Shown here: positions 18,690 to 53,819 of the stretch, in pieces | Position numbering within the stretch: the stretch's first letter is position 1 | How the letters are laid out: every line of letters starts with the position of its first letter | From: Cepaea nemoralis | Taxonomy: Eukaryota > Mollusca > Gastropoda > Stylommatophora > Helicidae | Reading direction: 5' to 3' | Length of the DNA stretch: 64,000 nt | Assembly (NCBI GenBank): GCA_014155875.1 | Contig: JACEFZ010011691.1 | Span: 1,104,501-1,168,500 of the forward strand | Translations under genes and position numbers: made by a program | Notes under the pieces: generated by a model | Database searches by the model: none | What the model saw: only the letters and a program-made list of their open reading frames with translations | What the model was told of the DNA's origin: nothing

Positions 18690-19330
18690 TGATGTAATTT
18701 TTACACGGACGGCTCTGTGCTAAGAACCAAAAGAGGTGCCTAGGGGCTCATTTTTTATTTTTTTTTTGCATACCCTATTTACAGGAAATCGCTGTCAACA
18801 CCAGCATTGCTGTTGTTAATGTCTTGGCAAGTTTACGTTCAGTAGTTTGCCATTGCTTTCTGAACGACCGGCTTCCATACCAACACGTTAAAACCAAGCG
18901 CTAACTACAGGGTCTGCTACCAAATCGGTCGCAGCTGTGTTTCGAACATAGGATAGGTAAGCGGGATTACGAACCGCGTCCGTAACGCCTTTACCACGGA
19001 GACTGGCTAGGCCGTAACTCCTAGCCGCTATGGGTTCGTAGCAAAGGTTAATAGACAGTGTTTATTGCAGGAGAGCCTGGCATTTGATATCAAACACAAT
19101 TTAGAATATGAGGATGGAGGCAGTCACTGCGGCGTATCACTAGCTGGGGAATTAACAGCACACACGTGTCGTGATTGTAACGGACTAACATGCATGCTCA
19201 GCAGGGTGAAGACAGGTATGCTTCGTGTAGAGTGGTAGGCGTCAATTAAGAAGTCTACGGTGGGGAGTACCCGTTGGATAGCTTCCTCCGGGGTATGCTG
19301 GTGTGTTTGTAAATTTGTTCGTTTGAAATT
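18690..19330 (+). pseudogene. RNase H-bearing LINE fragment split by a SINE
   Basis: 18700-18745 encodes YTDGSVLR, the first catalytic aspartate segment of RNase H. The sequence resumes at about 19060-19310 with text parallel to 1880-2110 of the 1789-2440 insertion (the METAV glutamate region, the CNG-T-H-AQQG equivalent of TDSQSML, then the FSGVCWCV region). It has many stops and is clearly dead. Confidence 0.6.
18750..19056 (-). mobile_element. tRNA-derived SINE
   Basis: On the minus strand the head reads GTCTCCGTGGTAAAGGCG (box A-like), followed by GGTTCGTAATCCCGC (box B-like). A middle domain containing CAGAAAGCAATGGCAAACTA and an A-rich tail (18751-18773 as T on the plus strand) follow. 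The middle domain and tail recur at 42610-42770, 58652-58895 and 60495-60585. It interrupts the RNase H fragment around it. Confidence 0.75.
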
Positions 19331-43043: not shown

Positions 43044-43565
43044 GTCCCCTTACACTGATGAATGATAACATTTGAACTAGAACACATAACACTATCAGAT
43101 TCACCAAGAACACCCAGCTTATGGTGATCTATGTTACCGGACATGAACAGAGCATGCAAATCTTAGACAAAAGCTCAGAGTCTGCAGCAGAGGCCTGGAG
43201 AAGGTGATGATGGGCCTGGTTCTTGTGATAAGGCTGTCCATACAACAGATAAGTGTAGCACCATTGAAGATGTTTCTGTAAGAGAAATGCTTGACCCTCA
43301 CATATATTAGATCACTAAATAATGGGGTAGTTTGGCAAGTTCCCTCCCCCTCTACCATGAGAAAGAAATCTCTGCTACTGATTTGATTACACTGGGCCAC
43401 AGGCCAATTGTGCTGATCAGATCAACATGTGATTAGACTGGGCCACATGTCAGTTGTACTGATCAGATCAACATGTGATCATGATTGCCACTGCTGGACT
43501 TGAGCCCTGAATCATTGTGTTGATAGGCAAGATTCAGTTTTCTTTGTCATGCCACCTTTAACTGT

Positions 43566-43820
43566 GTAGTGCCATATATCATTGCGTCCGGGGCGGCAAG
43601 GCCTAACTTGACGTATTATTTATTTTTCGATAGGATGTGCCGTGACCTAATTAACAATTTAAAATGGCTGCCAATTGTGTATTATGTGCCTTTTATTACT
43701 GTGGCTTGTTTATTTTTAAATGGACAACGTAGTGCCATATATCATTGCGTCCGGGGAGGCGAGGCCTAACTTGACGTAATATTTATTTTTCGATAGGATG
43801 TGCTGTGACCTAATTAATAG
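43566..43820 (+). repeat. Direct repeat of about 90 bp, 165 bp apart
   Basis: 43566-43656 and 43731-43820 share GTAGTGCCATATATCATTGC through GTGACCTAATTAA with few changes. The spacer is unrelated. Confidence 0.85.
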
Positions 43821-44244: not shown

Positions 44245-44249
44245 CTTAC

Positions 44250-44860
44250 TGTCAAAGACTTAGGTAGGCAGTAGTGAAGACCACCCTGAACGAGTGGTCT
44301 ACCTCAAGTAGATTAGAGGTAACTCAGTGCCCCTACATGAGGGCAGGGTAGGTGATAGGAAGGGGAACTATTAAATAGTTCTCTCATGAGACACGAAGGT
44401 GTCAACCAGAGAGTCAGCACTCTGGTCACGGCGCTATCACGCCTACGTGATAGACACGAAGAAGTGGAATACCACTCAAGAAGAGACGGCTGCTCTAAGC
44501 GTGCTGAGTGATACAGCACGCACAAGCCGAAGGGCACACAAGGTCCTTCCGCGTGGTGTGTAGCCACGCGAGGAATAGAGTCAGACTGGGGACTGACTTC
44601 ATAGTGAGCGCATCGCTTAGCGTCGATGCGTGTTTCTTTAGCCAAGTAGATAGAGTAGAAGTAGGGTTAGGATAACGACTAGTGATAGGCCATTCTGTGT
44701 CTTAGTGTGTGATTTATTAGCGACCGTTTTGTGTATTGATGTAGTGTAAAGAGCCAGCGGCAATAAAATGTGTAATCCATGCCTCTCGTACGACTTGCAA
44801 TCTTTTTGTGTGGTGCGAGAGAAGTTTATCCCGTGATGCCTGACACATCGGTTGGTGACA
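44250..44860 (+). repeat. 5' LTR (611 bp)
   Basis: Begins TGTCAAAG and ends GGTGACA, i.e. TG...CA. It differs from the 3' LTR at about eleven positions by eye (about 2%). AATAAA at about 44763 is a probable polyadenylation signal within it. Confidence 0.95.
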
Positions 44861-44874
44861 GGCAAGGATAAAAG

Positions 44875-44888
44875 TGGTGTCAGAAGTG
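44875..44888 (+). other. Candidate primer-binding site, tRNA-Leu type
   Basis: TGGTGTCAGAAGTG is the form expected for priming by a leucine tRNA 3' end. It lies 14 bases after the LTR end, further than usual. Confidence 0.55.
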
Positions 44889-46039
44889 TGGCTTGAACAA
44901 TTGTTCAAGCTAAAACACTCACCCACGGCTCTAAAATAGCATTACTATCAGTTAATAGCAGGGTTTAATTTGTGTTAGTGAATAATGACGTGTGCAGACT
45001 AGTACAAGTTGCGAGCGAGCTGTGCCCATCGTGTTCAATCGTGTTTAGTTATGCTTATTGATAGGTTTTGTGATCTATGAACATGTTTTCTGATTTGTAA
45101 GTATTATTATTATAGTTTTCTATCATTTATTGTTATAATTACTTATTTATTTATGAATATTTGTCAAATATGATTCATGGCGGAGCGATACACAAAGAAA
45201 AGTGAGCCGGCGACAATATTGATTTTTCCAATCTAAAAATAGCGCTGCGCCTGTGACGTAGCGTGACTGACAAACAGCTGCGTTACGCCATTGGCATTCA
45301 GCGACAGATTGTTGACAAATCGCAAAGCGGCTGCTCGCCTGAATCTTTGCTTTATATCATATATTATTGGTTTATATAAGTTATAGATTGAATATATTTA
45401 TTTATTTCAACAATATTATTACGTTTATATTTATTTTAAAGCATTTATTTAATGATTTCTTTAGCTTTTCTATTTGTTATTGTCACGATGGCACTACTTT
45501 TGCTAGGCAAATAAAACTCGGTCTGCACAACACTTCCATAGATTAAACAAGATTAGGTAAGGAAGGCAGAAGACGTTAGAACGAAGACAGGACATTGACA
45601 TTTAATATTAATTAATCTATATTGTTTTGTCCGGGGGCATGTGATTGTATACATTGTCTAAAGATATATGTCGTTTACAATTTGTTAATTGTTGATGCTC
45701 TTGTAAACCAGGGAGAACAACAGCTGTTTAGAAGTGTAACACAAGGTGTTTGTCGTAGTGCCAAACGATTGGACCTGAGGTGCCAAACGATTGTACCTGA
45801 TTGATCTGGATGGTTAAGATGAGTATACCCAAAGTATTTTGAATGCAATATGATTAATAATGCATCTCTTTTTCAGCGTGTGATGTATTAGTATATTTTT
45901 TTGGTTGTGATCCATTTGTCGAGGCATAATCTAAGAGTGTATTTTGTTGTACACAGGGAGTTAAAAACTTAACATATATAATATAAATAAGTGAATAAAT
46001 AATTAAGTGCCTGTTAGCTCTAGCTACTTACCCAACATC
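44889..46039 (+). other. Untranslated leader of the LTR element
   Basis: About 1.1 kb without a convincing ORF. It may contain packaging signals, not identifiable by eye. Confidence 0.6.
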
Positions 46040-49000
46040 ATGTCAACTTTAGCTGATTTTATAGAAGCAGGCAAGGCATTACAATACACAGGAAAGGAAT
46101 TAGAGCAATATGCTGAGAAAAAATTTAGCGAAGCAAAAGATGCTGAGAGAGATGAACATGCACGAGAAAGACAACACCAGAAAGAACTAGCTGAAATAAC
46201 AAAACAAAAGGAATTAGAAATAAAACACAAAGAATTAGAAATAAAACACAAAGAGGCACAACTAGTTGAAGAAACGAAACAGAAACAGTTAGAACAAGAT
46301 AAGGAAATTAAACAAAAGCAGTTAGAACAGGATAAGGAGATTAAACAAAAAGAATTAGAAATAAAGCAAAAACAATTAGATCAAGAGAAGGAAATGAAAC
46401 AGAAGGAATTAGAGATAAAACAAAAAGAGATAGATGAAATGGCAAGAGTTAAGGAAAAACAAATACAGGTTGAATCAGAGACACAGTTAAAGATGAAAGG
46501 TATGGATGTAGATTCACACTTAGAGATCTCCGCTACAAAACTAAAGAGTCAGCAAGAAGGAAATAAATTTAATAAGTATAAAAACATTATTAAACCATTC
46601 TGTAAAGAAGACTCCATATCAGCCTGGACAGAAAATGTCGAATATCAGTTTAAATACCACCAAGTACCAATCGATATGTGGGCTATGATTTACATGAAGA
46701 ACCTGAGTGGGGAGCCCCTTAAAGTAATTGAATCAATACCAACTGATCTTAGATCTAACTATCAGTACATCCATGATAGGATAATGCAACATTTCTTACT
46801 TGATGCCCCTGGGTATCAAGTACAGTTTTCAAATTTAAAACCAAAACCAAGTGAGACTTTCATCGATTATGTCTCGAATGTCCAAAGCGTACTAAATAGA
46901 TGGCTTAATGCAGCAAACATAGGTAAAGACTATGAGAAACTTAAAAACTTAATAGCCATGGATAAAGTCATATCCACTATACCATCTCCTTTCGCTAAAT
47001 TCCTTCAGCAGTCAGACATCGAGACCATAGAACAATTTGAAAAGAAAGGCTCGGCATATTTTTCCTCGAATAGGGATATTTTTAAAACATCTAATATCGA
47101 CTCTGAAATAGTCTCTTTTGTTAAGGACCAACCTAAAAGCTATCGTAGCAATAAAAAACCATTTCAGAGAGTCGAGAAGAAAGACCAAAAATTACCTAAA
47201 TGTGTGTATTGCCAACTATTTCATGATACTTATTCTATGTGTGATAAATCACCAAACTATCCTGCACATCTTGAGACGGTCATTAAGAAGCAACAAAACA
47301 AGAGAACTGCATACAGGCGTGCAGTCAAATGCTTCTTCTGTTCCAGCTACGGGCATTATTCAAATAAGTGCCTGGGACGCCAACGTATGAAGGCCAACAG
47401 TGCAGTGTTAATTGATACATCTTCTGATAGCGGTAGTGAGACTGAGTGTGAGGTCGAGAATGTGTTACCATTCAACCAATGTGAAGATGTGTGTTGTGTA
47501 AACGATATTTTAAACTTTGATAATTGTGAGCAATGTCACCAATTTCATGCAGACGGCAAACTTACATGTGGACATATTGTAACATCCTCCTTTGAGAATG
47601 CAAACGCAGCTGTAGCCTCCAGAGGCAATCTATTGTTTCACTCTGCATTGGTCAATGATAAGCCATGCCGATGTTTGCTTGACAGTGGGAGCTCTATTAT
47701 TGGTATTAAAAGGGAACTTATTAATCCAAAGGATTATACTGGTGACTCTGTAAAGTGCCGTACGTTTTCTGGTAATATAGAAACCTATCCTCTGGCAAGA
47801 GCCCGTATAAACACCCCGTTCCTTTCTGGTACCTTTACATGTGCAATATTAGACAACCCTTGTACCGATTTAATTCTTGGGTGTCTACCCCAGCTAAGGC
47901 ACCGTACTGATGAAGAAATATCTGTCTGGGAGGAGAAAAATGGACTAACTCCAGTGAACAGTGCAGACATCCTCAAATATCACAGTCCTAACAAAAGTGC
48001 TAGACCCATAATACTTGAAACTGATCAAGACGTAATGGTGTTACTACCAGACAAGCATAATAAAATGATAACTTATTGGCAAGGGCCATTCAAGGTGATA
48101 CAAATACTTTCGGATGTCGAGTATGAAATATCGATAAACGGACACTTAGAGATATTTCATATCAACATGTTGAAACCCTATTTTTCACGACAAGAGACAG
48201 AATTAGAGACAGACGAACACATTGCACCCACACCTATTGATCAGACGACAGACATACATAACGCAACTACACTAGTTAGCGAGACTGGCAAAGCCGACGA
48301 GATGCACACACCTAGTGAGTTTACAGAAAATGCACTTAGCACCACAACCATACTGAATCAGATAGACGACGACGGGATGGAACTACCCGTACCAATTGTA
48401 GACAAGACTGCTACATTAGAGTGCATACGGTTAGAAACGGAACTAACAGACGAGCAACGACGACAGACAATAGAATTAGTGACGGAATATAAAGACATAT
48501 TTTCCGACATTCCAGGTAGGACGGACAGGATCGAGCACTCCATCCTTCTTTCAGACTCTAAGCCTATCAAATGCAGGCCGTACTCTATCCCACTCAGCTA
48601 TAGGGAAAATCTAAATAAGGAAATTCTTAATTTAGAAGCTAGTGGGATCATTCAGAAATCTACATCTGAGTACTCCTTTCCAATCGTCCTAGTCAAGAAA
48701 AAAGACTCCACAATTCGTCTTTGTGTGGACTATACGAAACTTAACAATGTCACTAAGATCGACGCAGAACCAATTCCTTCCTGTGAAGATCTTATTCTAG
48801 ATATGTCCACCTCCAAAATCTTCTCTAAATTAGATCTTACTAAGGGATATTGGCAGGTCCCTATGCAGGCTGAATCCATCCATCTTACTGCTTTCTCAAC
48901 ACCTTTAGGTCTGTACGAGTGGCGGTTTCTTCCTTTCGGACTTCGTAACGCTCCTGCCACTTTCGTACGCTTAACTAGAGATTTACTACATGGAGTGACG

Positions 49001-49843
49001 AATACAGTGACCTATATAGATGATATTTGTGTCCATACAGACGACTGGACAACACACTTACTGAAACTCAGACATGTCTTCGATAGGTTGCGACTCTTCG
49101 GTCTCACGGTCAAACCGAGCAAAGTTGAATTGGGCCTAAAAGAAATTGATTTTTTGGGTCATGTCATTTCACAAGGTCAACTAACAACTGACAATAGAAT
49201 TATTACAAAAATTATGAACCTGACCATGCCTACAACAAAGAAGCAGGTCAGGAGCCTTTTGGGTTTAGTAAATTATTACAGTAAGTTCATACCGAACTTA
49301 GCTGAAATTACCAGTGTATTTTCAAATGTGTTAAAAGCATCAGTAAAATTAGATGTTAAAGATGCATTATTAATTTCTGCATTGTCAAAATTGAAACTCC
49401 TATTTAGCAATGTACCAATCCTCCGTTTGCCTAATCCTAGGCTCGTTTATTATCTTAGGACAGATGCCAGCAGGATCTCCATCGCTGCAGTACTAGGCCA
49501 GTTTTATGATGGCATCTTCCATCTGATTTGCTACGTGAGCCGCAAGATCACACCTGCTGAGTCCAGATATTTCATATCAGAGTTGGAAGCCCTAAGCGTT
49601 ATCTATTCGGTGAGAAAGTTACATCGATTTCTAGCGGGTGTTCACTTTGTGGTCCAGACCGACAACTCCCCGATCACGGTCATACAAAGTGGGGTGCATC
49701 GTAATGACCGCATTTACAGGTGGTCATTAATATTGCAGAATTATACTTTTAGTATAGAGCATATTAAGGGTAAGGACAACATTCTTGCTGATACCCTTAG
49801 TCGACCATCTGAGGTAGAAATACCTGATATGCCACATGAATAG
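46040..49843 (+). CDS. Gag-Pol polyprotein (Gag, protease, GPY/F module, RT, RNase H)
   Basis: An open frame of 1267 codons from ATG 46040; the frame is open further upstream but without an earlier ATG. Domains by approximate residue: 30-160 Lys/Glu/Gln-rich coiled coil of near-repeats; 180-350 Gag core (ISAWTENVEYQFKYH...); 390-440 zinc-binding pair, the second CFFCSSYGHYSNKC being a CX2CX4HX4C knuckle; about 547 aspartic protease motif LLDSGSS; 655-720 GPY/F-type module (VMVLLPDKHNK, WQGPFKV, HINMLKPY), normally the C-terminus of integrase; 800-1060 RT with LDLTKGYWQ and YIDDI (about 992); 1130-1260 RNase H with TDAS, ELEA, QTDNSP and ADTLSRP. The zinc-binding N-domain and DDE core of integrase are absent: protease runs almost directly into GPY/F near residue 650, in frame. 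All other catalytic residues I can check are present. Single-frame gag-pol without frameshift. Confidence 0.93.
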   Translation: MSTLADFIEAGKALQYTGKELEQYAEKKFSEAKDAERDEHARERQHQKELAEITKQKELEIKHKELEIKHKEAQLVEETKQKQLEQDKEIKQKQLEQDKEIKQKELEIKQKQLDQEKEMKQKELEIKQKEIDEMARVKEKQIQVESETQLKMKGMDVDSHLEISATKLKSQQEGNKFNKYKNIIKPFCKEDSISAWTENVEYQFKYHQVPIDMWAMIYMKNLSGEPLKVIESIPTDLRSNYQYIHDRIMQHFLLDAPGYQVQFSNLKPKPSETFIDYVSNVQSVLNRWLNAANIGKDYEKLKNLIAMDKVISTIPSPFAKFLQQSDIETIEQFEKKGSAYFSSNRDIFKTSNIDSEIVSFVKDQPKSYRSNKKPFQRVEKKDQKLPKCVYCQLFHDTYSMCDKSPNYPAHLETVIKKQQNKRTAYRRAVKCFFCSSYGHYSNKCLGRQRMKANSAVLIDTSSDSGSETECEVENVLPFNQCEDVCCVNDILNFDNCEQCHQFHADGKLTCGHIVTSSFENANAAVASRGNLLFHSALVNDKPCRCLLDSGSSIIGIKRELINPKDYTGDSVKCRTFSGNIETYPLARARINTPFLSGTFTCAILDNPCTDLILGCLPQLRHRTDEEISVWEEKNGLTPVNSADILKYHSPNKSARPIILETDQDVMVLLPDKHNKMITYWQGPFKVIQILSDVEYEISINGHLEIFHINMLKPYFSRQETELETDEHIAPTPIDQTTDIHNATTLVSETGKADEMHTPSEFTENALSTTTILNQIDDDGMELPVPIVDKTATLECIRLETELTDEQRRQTIELVTEYKDIFSDIPGRTDRIEHSILLSDSKPIKCRPYSIPLSYRENLNKEILNLEASGIIQKSTSEYSFPIVLVKKKDSTIRLCVDYTKLNNVTKIDAEPIPSCEDLILDMSTSKIFSKLDLTKGYWQVPMQAESIHLTAFSTPLGLYEWRFLPFGLRNAPATFVRLTRDLLHGVTNTVTYIDDICVHTDDWTTHLLKLRHVFDRLRLFGLTVKPSKVELGLKEIDFLGHVISQGQLTTDNRIITKIMNLTMPTTKKQVRSLLGLVNYYSKFIPNLAEITSVFSNVLKASVKLDVKDALLISALSKLKLLFSNVPILRLPNPRLVYYLRTDASRISIAAVLGQFYDGIFHLICYVSRKITPAESRYFISELEALSVIYSVRKLHRFLAGVHFVVQTDNSPITVIQSGVHRNDRIYRWSLILQNYTFSIEHIKGKDNILADTLSRPSEVEIPDMPHE

Positions 49844-51959
49844 GTAGTTTAATGAATGGTTAGTTAGTACACTTAGAGTATCCTATGTAAATACATAGAC
49901 ATCATGTTCAGAACTGTGTGCTAAGAACAGTGAACTACCATGTGTCCGTAGACAACAGAACGAGAACTGTGCTCCAAGAACAAGTGAATCACCGTGTGTA
50001 CATAGACAGCTCATTATTTACTATGCTCCATTTCTGTTCCGGTGAATCAGCTATGTTAATCAGTGAAGAACAGTGTCAGAACAATACATATATAACAGAC
50101 ACGAATATACCTGTCTACGACACCAGCGGAATCTACGAGTGTGATAATACCCATAAGACACATGTATGACGGTGTAGTGTATTTAGTATACCCAGTAGAA
50201 GTGTGTATATATAAACTATGCCAACGAGAGGAATTTCTAAACGTGACGGCAACAACTAACCTGGGGTACTTGAATACTATGTATATATATTGAGTTAATG
50301 TGATATGTAATATAACGATTTTAATATAGTGATAACGTATAGTTAGATTAGTTACTTTAATATAGAGTTAGATTAGATTTAGGGAATATAATTTATTTTT
50401 TTTTGTAGTTTAGATAAATCATTAATCTACCCACTTATTTAGCTTAAAAGTAGATTAGTAGAGTACTTTAAACTTAATAACATCTAATTAAAGACTAGGA
50501 TTTAGTGTAGGAAAAGAACACCACCATTTAGTTCATTTCATTTAACTTTGTTTCATTCCATCTTAATGAACACTTTAACAACCTCATCATTTAGGATTAA
50601 AAGTAGTTTATACCTTATAGGATTATACAGATAAACATACATCATTTATATCATTTAGATTATAAATATCAATCATATATGTTTTCATTTAAACATTAAA
50701 ACATTATCTAGAATTTTGTTGCATTTCACATCACCCATTTCAGTAAGGTATATAACTCATCTCACATTAATGTCATTCTTTTTAGATAGTTAGATTACTC
50801 CCCTTAGATGCCCTTAGAATAGAGTAAAGTGGTGTAACAACTTTAATATATGTAGTAGTACTAAGTAGTATTAGGATTTCAATAGAACATACCATTTAAG
50901 AATATCAGGGTACAAAACATCAATCCGTTTTTTCTTGCCTGTAAATATTTTGTAAATACATGACTCGTGCAGCAAGTTACGCACAGTCATTAAGCTCAAC
51001 TTTTTTTTCAAACTGAGCCAAACTTGTACAGTGTCACTTCAAGGTTTTTAAATAAATGTGAGGATAAAAGATGTGTGACAGAAGTGTGAAAGTGAGAGTA
51101 AATGGAAAATGTACAAGGGAGAGTGAGGACAACCAGTGGATTTTTTTCTGCCTCTCAACGCGACTTTTTAATTTTTGTCTGCGTCAAGCGTTTGCTTTCA
51201 ATGTTGAAAATGTACTGTCTTGAGTGTGTTATGTGTAGTTTAGTGTAGATCTTAGATAAAGTATTTTAAGTCTCATAAGACGGAAACGTAGTCACGAATT
51301 AGTGTTATACACTTGTTTGCGGCCGCATTTAACCGAATTATGGCACTTGAAAACTAACTTACAGACATAATGTAGACAGACACACATGTTAGGCATTAAA
51401 TTATATTATAGGTTACATCCAAACACGCAAACAACCAGAAAAACAAACATATAAAGTACATACATTTTTCAGAACAAAGGGAGATAACTCCGGGTCAGGG
51501 GACACAATAGACAACGAAACACTAACTTAACAGTGAAAGATAACTTTACACGCGGAAGCGAGATAGGTAAAGCCTGTCGCACACAGCTTGTGTAAGGGGT
51601 GTTTAATATTATATGGGGGACATGAAGCAATTCATGTGTTGACCCTAAGAAAGTCAACGTTGTATGGGTAGTGAGTTAATTTACTATTTGAGGGCAGGTC
51701 TATAAGACAATGGTCCGGTTCAGACAAACCTCTAATTAATATAATATTGCGATTGAGAAGAGGGCTCACGCCAACCATACAAGTTTGTGGCGATCACCAG
51801 TAGCCAAGTAAAGTGATACTACATTGTGACAATAGTCAGTAGAAGTCTATTGGGTTACCCAGAACCAGGTTATCAGTAGTCTTTGACAAAAATTAGATAC
51901 ACTAATTTTTTAGATACCTCTTGAGTCACAACCATGAGTCAAAGTTTGTAACGCAACAC
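49844..51959 (+). other. 2.1-kb non-coding trailer of the LTR element
   Basis: AT-rich and without domains. 49911-49950 and 49964-50010 are an imperfect tandem pair (AGAACTGTG...AAGAACA...GTG). A short ORF at 49918-50169 has no similarity I can name. There is no env-like signal peptide or transmembrane pattern. Confidence 0.6.
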
Positions 51960-51971
51960 AGGAGGGGAAGG
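51960..51971 (+). other. Polypurine tract
   Basis: AGGAGGGGAAGG, four bases before the 3' LTR, the expected position of the plus-strand primer. Confidence 0.75.
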
Positions 51972-51975
51972 TGTG

Positions 51976-52586
51976 TGTCAAAGACTTAGGTAGGCAGTAG
52001 TGAAGACCACCCTGAACGAGTGGTCTACCTCAAGTAGATTAGAGGTAACTCAGTGCCCCTACATGAGGGCAGGGTAGGTGATAGGAAGGGGAACTATTAA
52101 ATAGTTCTCCCATGAGACACGAAGGTGTCAACCAGAGAGTCAGCACTCTGGTCACGGCGCTATCACGCCTACGAGATAGACACGGAGAAGTGGAATACCA
52201 CTCAAGAAGAGACGGCTACTCTAAGCGTGCTGAGTGATACAGCACACACAAGCCGAAGGGCACACAAGGTCCTTCCGCGTGGTGTGTAGCCACGTGAGGA
52301 ATAGAGTCAGACTGGGGACTGACTTCATAGTGAGCGCATCGCTTAGCGTCGATGCATGTTTCTTTAGCCAAGTAGATAGAGTAGAAGTAGGGTTAGGATA
52401 ACGACTAGTGATAGGCCATTCTGTGTCTTAGTGTGTGATTTATTAGCGACCGTTTTGTGTATTGATGTAGTGTAAAGAGCCAGCGGCAATAAAATGTGTA
52501 ATCCATGCCTCTCGTACGACTTACAATCTTTTTGTGTGGTGCGAGAGAAGTTTATCCCGTAATTCCTGACCCATCGGTTGGTGACA
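51976..52586 (+). repeat. 3' LTR (611 bp)
   Basis: Same length and termini as the 5' LTR. Differences are mostly transitions, several of them G to A from the 5' to the 3' copy. Confidence 0.95.
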
Positions 52587-52591
52587 CTTAC

Positions 52592-53210
52592 ACTACTTAC
52601 AAGTTTACAGACAGGTCTGAAAACTGGCTTTCAAAATTATTTTCAGTCATGTCAAATGCTGAAATATTATGCAAGTACACAGATACATTACTGCTACAAA
52701 TGACACTTGTATTCTGTTTAATTTTAGTAGTTAAAATACCAGTTCTAATCATAAATAAATACAGGTCCGCTATAGTTTATTGTATGGGCACTGCAATCTT
52801 GAATTTTGTGTTATGACGGCCTTGGCCATGTCACTAAATATTTTTTCCTGAACGCCCGCAAACACCTGCAATGTTGCAACTCTTCACATTTATGTAAAAT
52901 TTAACGGGCAATTAACAAATGCAACAAAAAGTTAAGGATTCTTTTAAATGCAGGAGTTATAAGACACATTAGCCTACTATTCATGAATAGACTCCAAGAA
53001 ATTCAAGAAAAAACAGTTTCTCAGCCTCAAAATTTTGCAAGTTAGCAGAAGGACCTATACTGCAAATGCCAGAGTAGATTCCCCTTTCATTGTAACATGC
53101 TGCTTTCGTTTAATTCATTCCTAGCCGGACATGGTAACAACCGGAAGTGAATCGTTGGTCTCAAGAAAAAGTACGGGATATAAAAAAAACAAAGAAAAAT
53201 GTTTGGCCTG
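52592..53210. other. No gene recognised
   Basis: Right flank of the LTR element. One 103-codon ORF (52505-52816) starts inside the LTR and is chance. Confidence 0.4.
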
Positions 53211-53214
53211 ATAT

Positions 53215-53365
53215 CCTCTGACTGATAACCTGCAATTGGCATTGAGGTGTGTCTCTTGAATGCATGCCACAACTATTCTATCTTTATGAAGACGAATTGT
53301 TAGGGAGACTTTCTTGTTAGAAACTCCTTCGGCATTCCACTGTAGTATGTTGAGTGTCCAGGGTG
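53215..53365 (-). pseudogene. LINE AP-endonuclease fragment
   Basis: Minus-strand reading gives LNILQWNAEGVSNKKVSL, a short link, then VACIQETHLNANCRLSVRGY. The WNAEG start and IQETHL (catalytic glutamate) are the opening motifs of the apurinic-type endonuclease of non-LTR elements. Upstream text at 53370-53815 may be the 5' region of the same element and is unassigned. Confidence 0.65.
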
Positions 53366-53819
53366 TTTTGACAGCTCTTAACCTACTCCTCTGTGCCTTG
53401 ACTCCACAGCACAGGGGAAAGTGAACACCAGTAGTATAGGTGGACTCCCTCGAGGCAGAGGGCCCGGCACTATCACCACCTAATGGGACTTCACGGGATT
53501 AGCACCATACTGATTAATTTGAAACTGTGGCATCATGGATTGATTAAATTACGTTGCACAGCTTTGTCAAGCCTGTGGCTCAGTACATCCAATTTTGACA
53601 AGCATTTTTCGGGGAGCTTTCCCTAGCCTTTGACTGTCCCCAGTCTATCTACAAGGCAGCAGGTTTGTGTGTCTCTTCGGCTGGTTCCTCTCACTTGACC
53701 TGTCCGACATGGGAGGCCCTACCAGTAGCTGTGCTACCGTTGGCATAGCTCTTGGGGTCATTGGAACATGCAAGCCCCTCGACCTCGTCATGGTGGACAC
53801 ATGGCAGAGGGGTAATTGT

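Follow-up and report, generated by a model that had tools for sequence, protein, structure and literature searches.

How does a retrotransposon whose integrase core is missing come to occupy new sites in a genome? The question is raised by a 64,000-nucleotide stretch of DNA from the land snail Cepaea nemoralis (contig JACEFZ010011691.1, positions 1,104,501 to 1,168,500 of the forward strand), hereafter the window. It contains a complete long terminal repeat (LTR) retrotransposon at positions 44250-52586, with the sequence CTTAC on either side. Comparison of its sequence with that of its relatives suggests that this integrase-less (INT-less) element lives on integrase from integrase-bearing (INT+) members of the same Gmr1-like Ty3/gypsy family, a reading to which we assign a probability of roughly 0.78.

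The element has a single frame of 1,278 codons, free of stops from 46007 to 49843, that encodes gag, protease (PR), a GPY/F module, reverse transcriptase (RT) and RNase H in this order. An earlier note, made from the letters of the DNA alone, had read this unusual pol order, an open frame from protease into GPY/F, and an intact-looking RT and RNase H; all of these are borne out by the frame and by its Pfam matches, although the GPY/F match (E value 4e-5) lies under the curated cut-offs. The note had also reported that the zinc and DDE domains of integrase were gone. Neither rve nor Integrase_H2C2 is found in the frame at E values up to 1. No integrase, and no HHCC or DDE motif, was found elsewhere in the element, where the other frames listed (at least 60 amino acids) do not exceed 118 amino acids.

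Full-length relatives were sought with the LTR in the assembly (3.47 Gb, 26,579 contigs). The best 40 of 4,119 candidates were scored, and nine elements with visible LTR pairs were fetched. Seven of these (L032-L038) have no integrase core and two (L031 and L039) have one. The latter align to the window element on both sides of an additional stretch of about 1.19 kb, located between window positions 47892 and 47993/48009, which is where the earlier note had predicted a core in relatives (about 47950-48030). In L039 this stretch matches Integrase_H2C2 (4e-17) and rve (4e-15) and is followed by the same GPY/F module. The INT+ relatives thus have the order PR-INT-RT-RNase H, which is the Gmr1-like order. 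The Gmr1-like clade of Ty3/gypsy elements is described as carrying integrase upstream of RT (PMC6238403, PMC8220671), as do L031, L039 and the protein relative P0001. The window copy resembles the clade in keeping the GPY/F end of integrase upstream of RT, but differs in having neither the integrase zinc (HHCC) nor the DDE core, both of which its INT+ relatives possess. It is an INT-less derivative and not a complete Gmr1-like member, much as the note had supposed in calling it a deletion derivative.

The proposed Gmr1-like placement agrees with a tree of RT sequences, although no named Gmr1 reference was among the rows of its comparison set. This tree has 44 rows and draws on 43 of 314 proteins; the 39 rows from families with integrase first are split from five other gypsy proteins at a branch with 100/100 support. 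Three of these five (P0225, P0235 and P0251) have integrase-type motifs after RT, and the other two (P0214 and P0237) have no integrase-type motif and an RT almost identical to that of P0235. A separate tree that also placed the RT with the integrase-first families omitted the short P0001 and 15 of the 20 rows of a family, typified by P0118, that is described below. The nearest named protein relative is from Bradybaena similaris. Within the snail genome, 53 of the best 60 of 69,187 candidate INT+ matches to P0001 contain no stop, and their open frames reach 1,687 amino acids.

Copy numbers were estimated across the genome with 34-nucleotide probes, allowing up to three mismatches; control patterns read backwards gave no matches each time. 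The probe for the deletion junction matches 414 places, that for the catalytic region of integrase 1,195, and that for the shared RT 2,136. Probes for flanks of the INT-less type match 647 places on the protease side, some of which might hold an integrase, and 517 on the GPY/F side. Because counts for one form differ between probes, each is only a rough count, but the INT-less form has several hundred copies in the genome. Among the matches listed, both flank probes occur on 40 contigs. Thirty-nine of these carry 40 close pairs with the 143-145-base spacing of the window copy, the INT+ spacing being absent, and on the fortieth the probes match two unrelated sites separated by 132 kb. A deletion or assembly artefact private to the window copy might be imagined in a draft that holds duplicate contigs (L034 and L035 are one insertion represented twice). 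This explanation has next to no probability, since the junction recurs at 414 places, the insertions have different target-site duplications (TSDs), and the flank probes keep their short spacing.

INT-less copies bear the marks of insertion. TSDs of 5 bp are present in all nine copies checked, seven of them INT-less (the window copy, L032-L036 and L038) and two INT+ (L031 and L039). These represent eight distinct insertions, L034 being L035, and were read after a one-base overlap at the LTR edge had been shifted by eye; L037 is outside the set. This last INT-less copy has an insert of about 2.6 kb in its leader, at window position ~45545. The LTR ends, primer-binding site (PBS) and polypurine tract (PPT) of L031 and L039 agree with those of the INT-less window copy, L032 and L036, and the putative PBS stretch TGGTGTCAGAAGTG recurs in all four of these relatives. 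The window element therefore lacks an integrase core yet has a TSD, LTRs that are 98% identical, and a junction repeated across the genome, and INT+ copies with matching termini and open frames reside beside it in the same genome.

The age of the insertion differs from the age of the deletion. The two LTRs of the window element differ at 12 of 612 columns (Kimura two-parameter distance, K80, 0.020), and LTR divergence ranges from 0.003 (L037, measured through L020/L023) to 0.028. In contrast, 28 other aligned junction loci are 90-97% identical to the window. INT-less copies that differ from it by up to about 10% were made over a long time rather than in a single recent burst. Judged from these divergences, the window insertion is young and the integrase deletion is not; the note's 'copied recently' holds for the former only.

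INT-less DNA could in principle enter the genome without integrase of its own family, through host recombination or the integrase of another family. Integrase-independent insertion of cDNA is known for some LTR elements, and further gypsy families are probably present in such a genome. However, the 5-bp TSDs and like LTR ends are common to INT-less and INT+ copies among the nine checked, and sequence has been exchanged with INT+ members, as described next. This alternative is accordingly quite improbable.

Evidence for exchange comes from trees of separate segments, in which 14 INT+ copies were sampled. Seven partial loci of the 29 junction loci L041-L069 (L045, L046, L047, L054, L062, L065 and L067) were omitted, and L033 was not used. 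In the GPY/F-segment tree all 14 INT+ copies fall together with support of 1.0, accompanied by one INT-less copy, L052. In the RT-segment tree, six of the 14 are interspersed with INT-less copies at five positions, one of them shared by L031 and L039; for example, L081 is 99.5% identical to L058, and L078 is 99.1% identical to L042. The conflict between these trees rejects a simple monophyletic INT-less lineage. Of the stable non-autonomous lineage envisaged in the earlier note, mobility stands, as the TSDs of INT-less insertions attest, but 'lineage' is too simple a term where integrase status is tied to a short module of divergent sequence within a family that recombines. L052, which joins the INT-less junction to a GPY/F segment of INT+ type, is a recombinant very near the junction.

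The limits of this module are visible in several measures. Among the six mixed INT+ and 29 INT-less copies, the mean association (r2) of integrase status with single sites reaches 0.49 at 48020-48110, then drops to 0.03-0.04 in all subsequent bins up to 49507. From about 47,575 to 48,110, INT-less copies diverge from the six, or from L031 and L039, by 11-50% (30- or 100-base bins), and by 12.8% in the 100-base bin just before; outside the module, they differ from the six (on the upstream side, from L031 and L039 only) about as much as they do among themselves. Between the window copy and L031, silent divergence is high in PR (0.72) and GPY/F (0.64) and low in gag (0.08) and RT (0.05); for RT it is 0.18 between the window copy and L081. 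L031 and L039 have an RT 97-99% identical to that of young INT-less copies and a different protease-GPY/F module. In these two elements, either an INT-less background may have acquired integrase or the transfer may have run the other way. For some of the sampled copies, the comparisons thus demonstrate, at the level of sequence, that RT has been exchanged between the forms.

Mosaics of this kind are usually explained by template switching between co-packaged RNAs, as in accounts of ONSEN (PMC5668417) and Athila (PMC2410132). Mixing of the two forms would thus imply template switching and, in turn, co-packaging, and it makes same-family integrase acting in trans the best explanation of INT-less mobility. 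By this mechanism, an INT-less element that keeps its LTRs, PBS, PPT, gag, protease, RT and RNase H would be transcribed from the same type of LTR into an RNA encoding Gag, PR and RT. INT-less and INT+ RNAs would be packaged into the same particles, and RT would switch between them as templates during copying. Gag and RT would largely form a common pool, with a short stretch around the missing integrase kept apart as a module. The partner's integrase would then insert the INT-less DNA with the same 5-bp duplication. Any advantage might lie in a shorter genome, or in more RT and Gag per integrase.

Selection on the INT-less form was gauged from simple allele counts in 28 INT-less copies set against the window copy (L062 was left out, and a transition bias of 2 was assumed). 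For alleles found in at least two INT-less copies, the ratio of replacement to silent change (omega) is about 0.07 in gag and about 0.06 in RT-RNase H. Inside the module, PR gives 0.29 (p = 0.0014) and the junction stretch 0.23 (p = 0.0076); the value for the C-terminal half of GPY/F is 0.20 (p = 0.0033). Since gag and RT are exchanged with INT+ copies, evidence on the INT-less form by itself comes from just three parts: PR and the junction stretch, which are constrained, and the N-terminal half of GPY/F, which is not clearly so.

Several observations weigh against trans supply of integrase within one recombining and functional family. Eight of the 14 INT+ copies (L070-L077, picked as those closest to P0001) group in an RT clade of their own and, outside the module, are 6-23% divergent from INT-less copies. 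Mixing is found for six INT+ copies: L031 and L039 were chosen through LTR likeness and L078 and L079 as carrying both probes, so that only L080 and L081 were found through the integrase probe alone. With all 14 INT+ copies, the association of status with sites is 0.46 and then falls only to 0.135-0.193, and RT silent divergence reaches 0.48 for L076, nearing the module level. Upstream of the module, the evidence of mixing covers L031 and L039 only. The duplicate contigs mean that copy numbers lean high. The N-terminal half of GPY/F is without significant constraint (omega 0.54, p = 0.14), the tests of constraint confined to the module are modest, and INT+ copies in the shared pool may be the source of the selection seen on gag and RT. 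Finally, only seven of 30 junction loci, the window included, are open across all 3 kb.

The last of these points could indicate that INT-less copies are dead, with a defective copy passively amplified and its open frame a functionless leftover. Singleton alleles, which are less constrained (omega 0.41 overall; 0.67 in PR, p = 0.17), and the prospect that selection on gag and RT is borrowed from INT+ partners through recombination agree with this idea. It remains unlikely, since copies up to 10% divergent from the window share alleles that are mostly silent, those in PR and the junction stretch included, since the window copy is fully open, and since a second family contains many INT-less predicted proteins.

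This second family was found among relatives of the window pol, of which 120 of 1,336 were listed. Twenty of the 120 are without integrase domains and all belong to one family, typified by P0118 (1,187 amino acids, 35% identity to the window pol). Among the matches listed, relatives of P0118 at 95% identity or more comprise 103 INT-less clusters (694 members) and two INT+ clusters (135 members), for example, P0188 with 1,559 amino acids. Ninety-four of the 103 INT-less clusters contain the strict junction expression and seven more a point-changed junction, and 101 keep the HANMLK of GPY/F. The ends of the deletion are unlike those in the window element. The P0118 family is thus a second Gmr1-like family in which INT-less and INT+ forms are paired, which suggests a repeatable evolutionary route.

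Far less common are three further integrase-less proteins, seen among 120 matches listed in a separate search and placed elsewhere in the RT tree. P0269 has one member, keeps GPY/F, and has an INT+ sister (P0272) at 99%. P0250, a predicted protein of Diadema antillarum with two members, and P0228, with six members, have neither integrase nor the GPY/F motif. Each of these rare types might be an isolated product of deletion. Two more proteins without integrase domains, P0233 and P0290, were not counted; each has two RT motifs and is probably a merged gene model. Strong conservation of the GPY/F remnant was considered as proof of function and set aside, as its N-terminal half lends no support and P0250 and P0228 do without the motif.

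On the RT tree, the five INT-less types require five changes, and each has INT+ neighbours. Holding them as one clade lowers the log-likelihood by 804, with an approximately unbiased (AU) test p-value of 0.068, so that despite the five changes a single origin of integrase loss is not formally rejected by these sequences. A wider reading, less likely than not, can be offered tentatively. INT+ and INT-less forms might be a long-kept two-part system, a balanced dimorphism in one recombining population in which the short form bears more of the Gag and RT load and the long form provides integrase. Gmr1-order elements might enter the INT-less state repeatedly, because an integrase in the middle of the polyprotein can be excised in frame. 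GPY/F, kept in the two high-copy systems, would perhaps be a dock for the partner's integrase.

Features of the window element, with coordinates in the window.
Feature	Position	Strand	Basis or remark
Target-site duplication CTTAC, left	44245..44249	.	same as 52587-52591, by reading
5' LTR (TG...CA)	44250..44860	+	
Putative primer-binding site TGGTGTCAGAAGTG	44875..44888	+	by position (14 bases past LTR) and TGG start
Single gag-pol frame without integrase core	46040..49843	+	stop-free from 46007, first ATG 46040
Gag zinc knuckle CCHC	47327..47371	+	Pfam zf-CCHC, aa 441-455, weak, E 0.29
Aspartic protease, DSG motif present	47645..47881	+	Pfam, aa 547-625, weak, E 0.03-0.07
INT-minus module, approximate limits	47500..48110	+	divergence profile, INT-less versus INT+
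Deletion junction, ~1.19 kb with integrase zinc and DDE core gone	47976..48009	+	alignment to INT+ relatives, 34-nt probe
GPY/F remnant (integrase C-terminal, SH3-like), WQGPFKV...HINMLKPY	48044..48181	+	Pfam SH3_Tf2-1/Integrase_p58_C, aa 680-725
Reverse transcriptase	48692..49168	+	Pfam RVT_1, aa 896-1054, E 1e-28
RNase H	49379..49744	+	Pfam, aa 1125-1246, E 1e-20 to 1e-24
2.1 kb without long frame, pol to PPT	49844..51959	+	also in INT+ copies L031 and L039; longest frame 103 aa (frames of at least 60 aa listed)
Polypurine tract AGGAGGGGAAGGTGTG	51960..51975	+	by position
3' LTR	51976..52586	+	
Target-site duplication CTTAC, right	52587..52591	.	by reading

Near the start of gag, positions 46186-46416 encode lysine- and glutamine-rich repeats whose length seems to vary among copies; BLAST alignments of several fetched elements are interrupted there. 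Short direct repeats lie just upstream of the element at 43381-43472 (an adjacent 46-nucleotide pair) and 43566-43817 (an 89-nucleotide pair with starts 163 apart). On the minus strand, a 125-amino-acid frame at 53121-53498 resembles, by eye, the N-terminus of a long interspersed nuclear element (LINE) endonuclease, and ARAGORN predicts a tRNA-Thr (CGT) at 18927-19003.

Known systems offer partial parallels. Defective interfering genomes are shorter derivatives that keep cis signals and depend on a full-length helper; the INT-less form differs in keeping nearly all enzymes and in being inherited as genomic copies. Large retrotransposon derivatives and terminal-repeat retrotransposons in miniature (LARD/TRIM-type elements; described in part in PMC3286476) have no coding capacity, unlike the window element with its long open frame. 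Closer are the non-autonomous Athila families of Arabidopsis, which are described as coding, under purifying selection, presumably mobilized in trans, and recombining with autonomous members (PMC2410132). The snail element shares with them a coding non-autonomous form and recombination with autonomous members. By that account, however, those families lack pol and keep gag and env, whereas the window form loses integrase only and belongs to an animal host and another clade.

Cereals harbour further non-autonomous LTR elements, such as RLG_Quinta with RLG_Cereba in wheat and RLG_Sabrina, RLG_WHAM and others in barley, and their non-autonomous form may contribute Gag (PMC11302176, PMC5738225). 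These pairs resemble the snail system in that autonomous and non-autonomous partners have common LTR ends and PBS. As described there, the non-autonomous cereal elements retain no more than gag or partial proteins (in Quinta, with a domain of unknown function) and not PR-RT-RNase H. ONSEN of Arabidopsis recombines family-wide during transposition, in a manner likened to recombinant retroviruses (PMC5668417); the snail case concerns loss of one enzyme and a dimorphism, neither of which appears in the abstract of that study.

Coding non-autonomous LTR families and partner pairs are thus already known from plants, as these accounts describe them. Apparently new is the loss of integrase alone, maintained in an animal clade as a dimorphism whose two forms recombine; no description of integrase-only loss in Gmr1-like elements, or of such a dimorphism, was found among the open-access PMC papers listed by the searches. 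The non-autonomous LTR elements described in these sources have either lost most of what they encoded or retain gag, in Athila together with env. Where one enzyme is missing and the rest is readable, its presence or absence provides a marker that can be traced across a family that recombines. Co-packaging, template switching and the use of integrase in trans then become measurable from genome sequence alone. The INT-less/INT+ system would also serve as a natural experiment on the amount of integrase that a population of retrotransposons requires.

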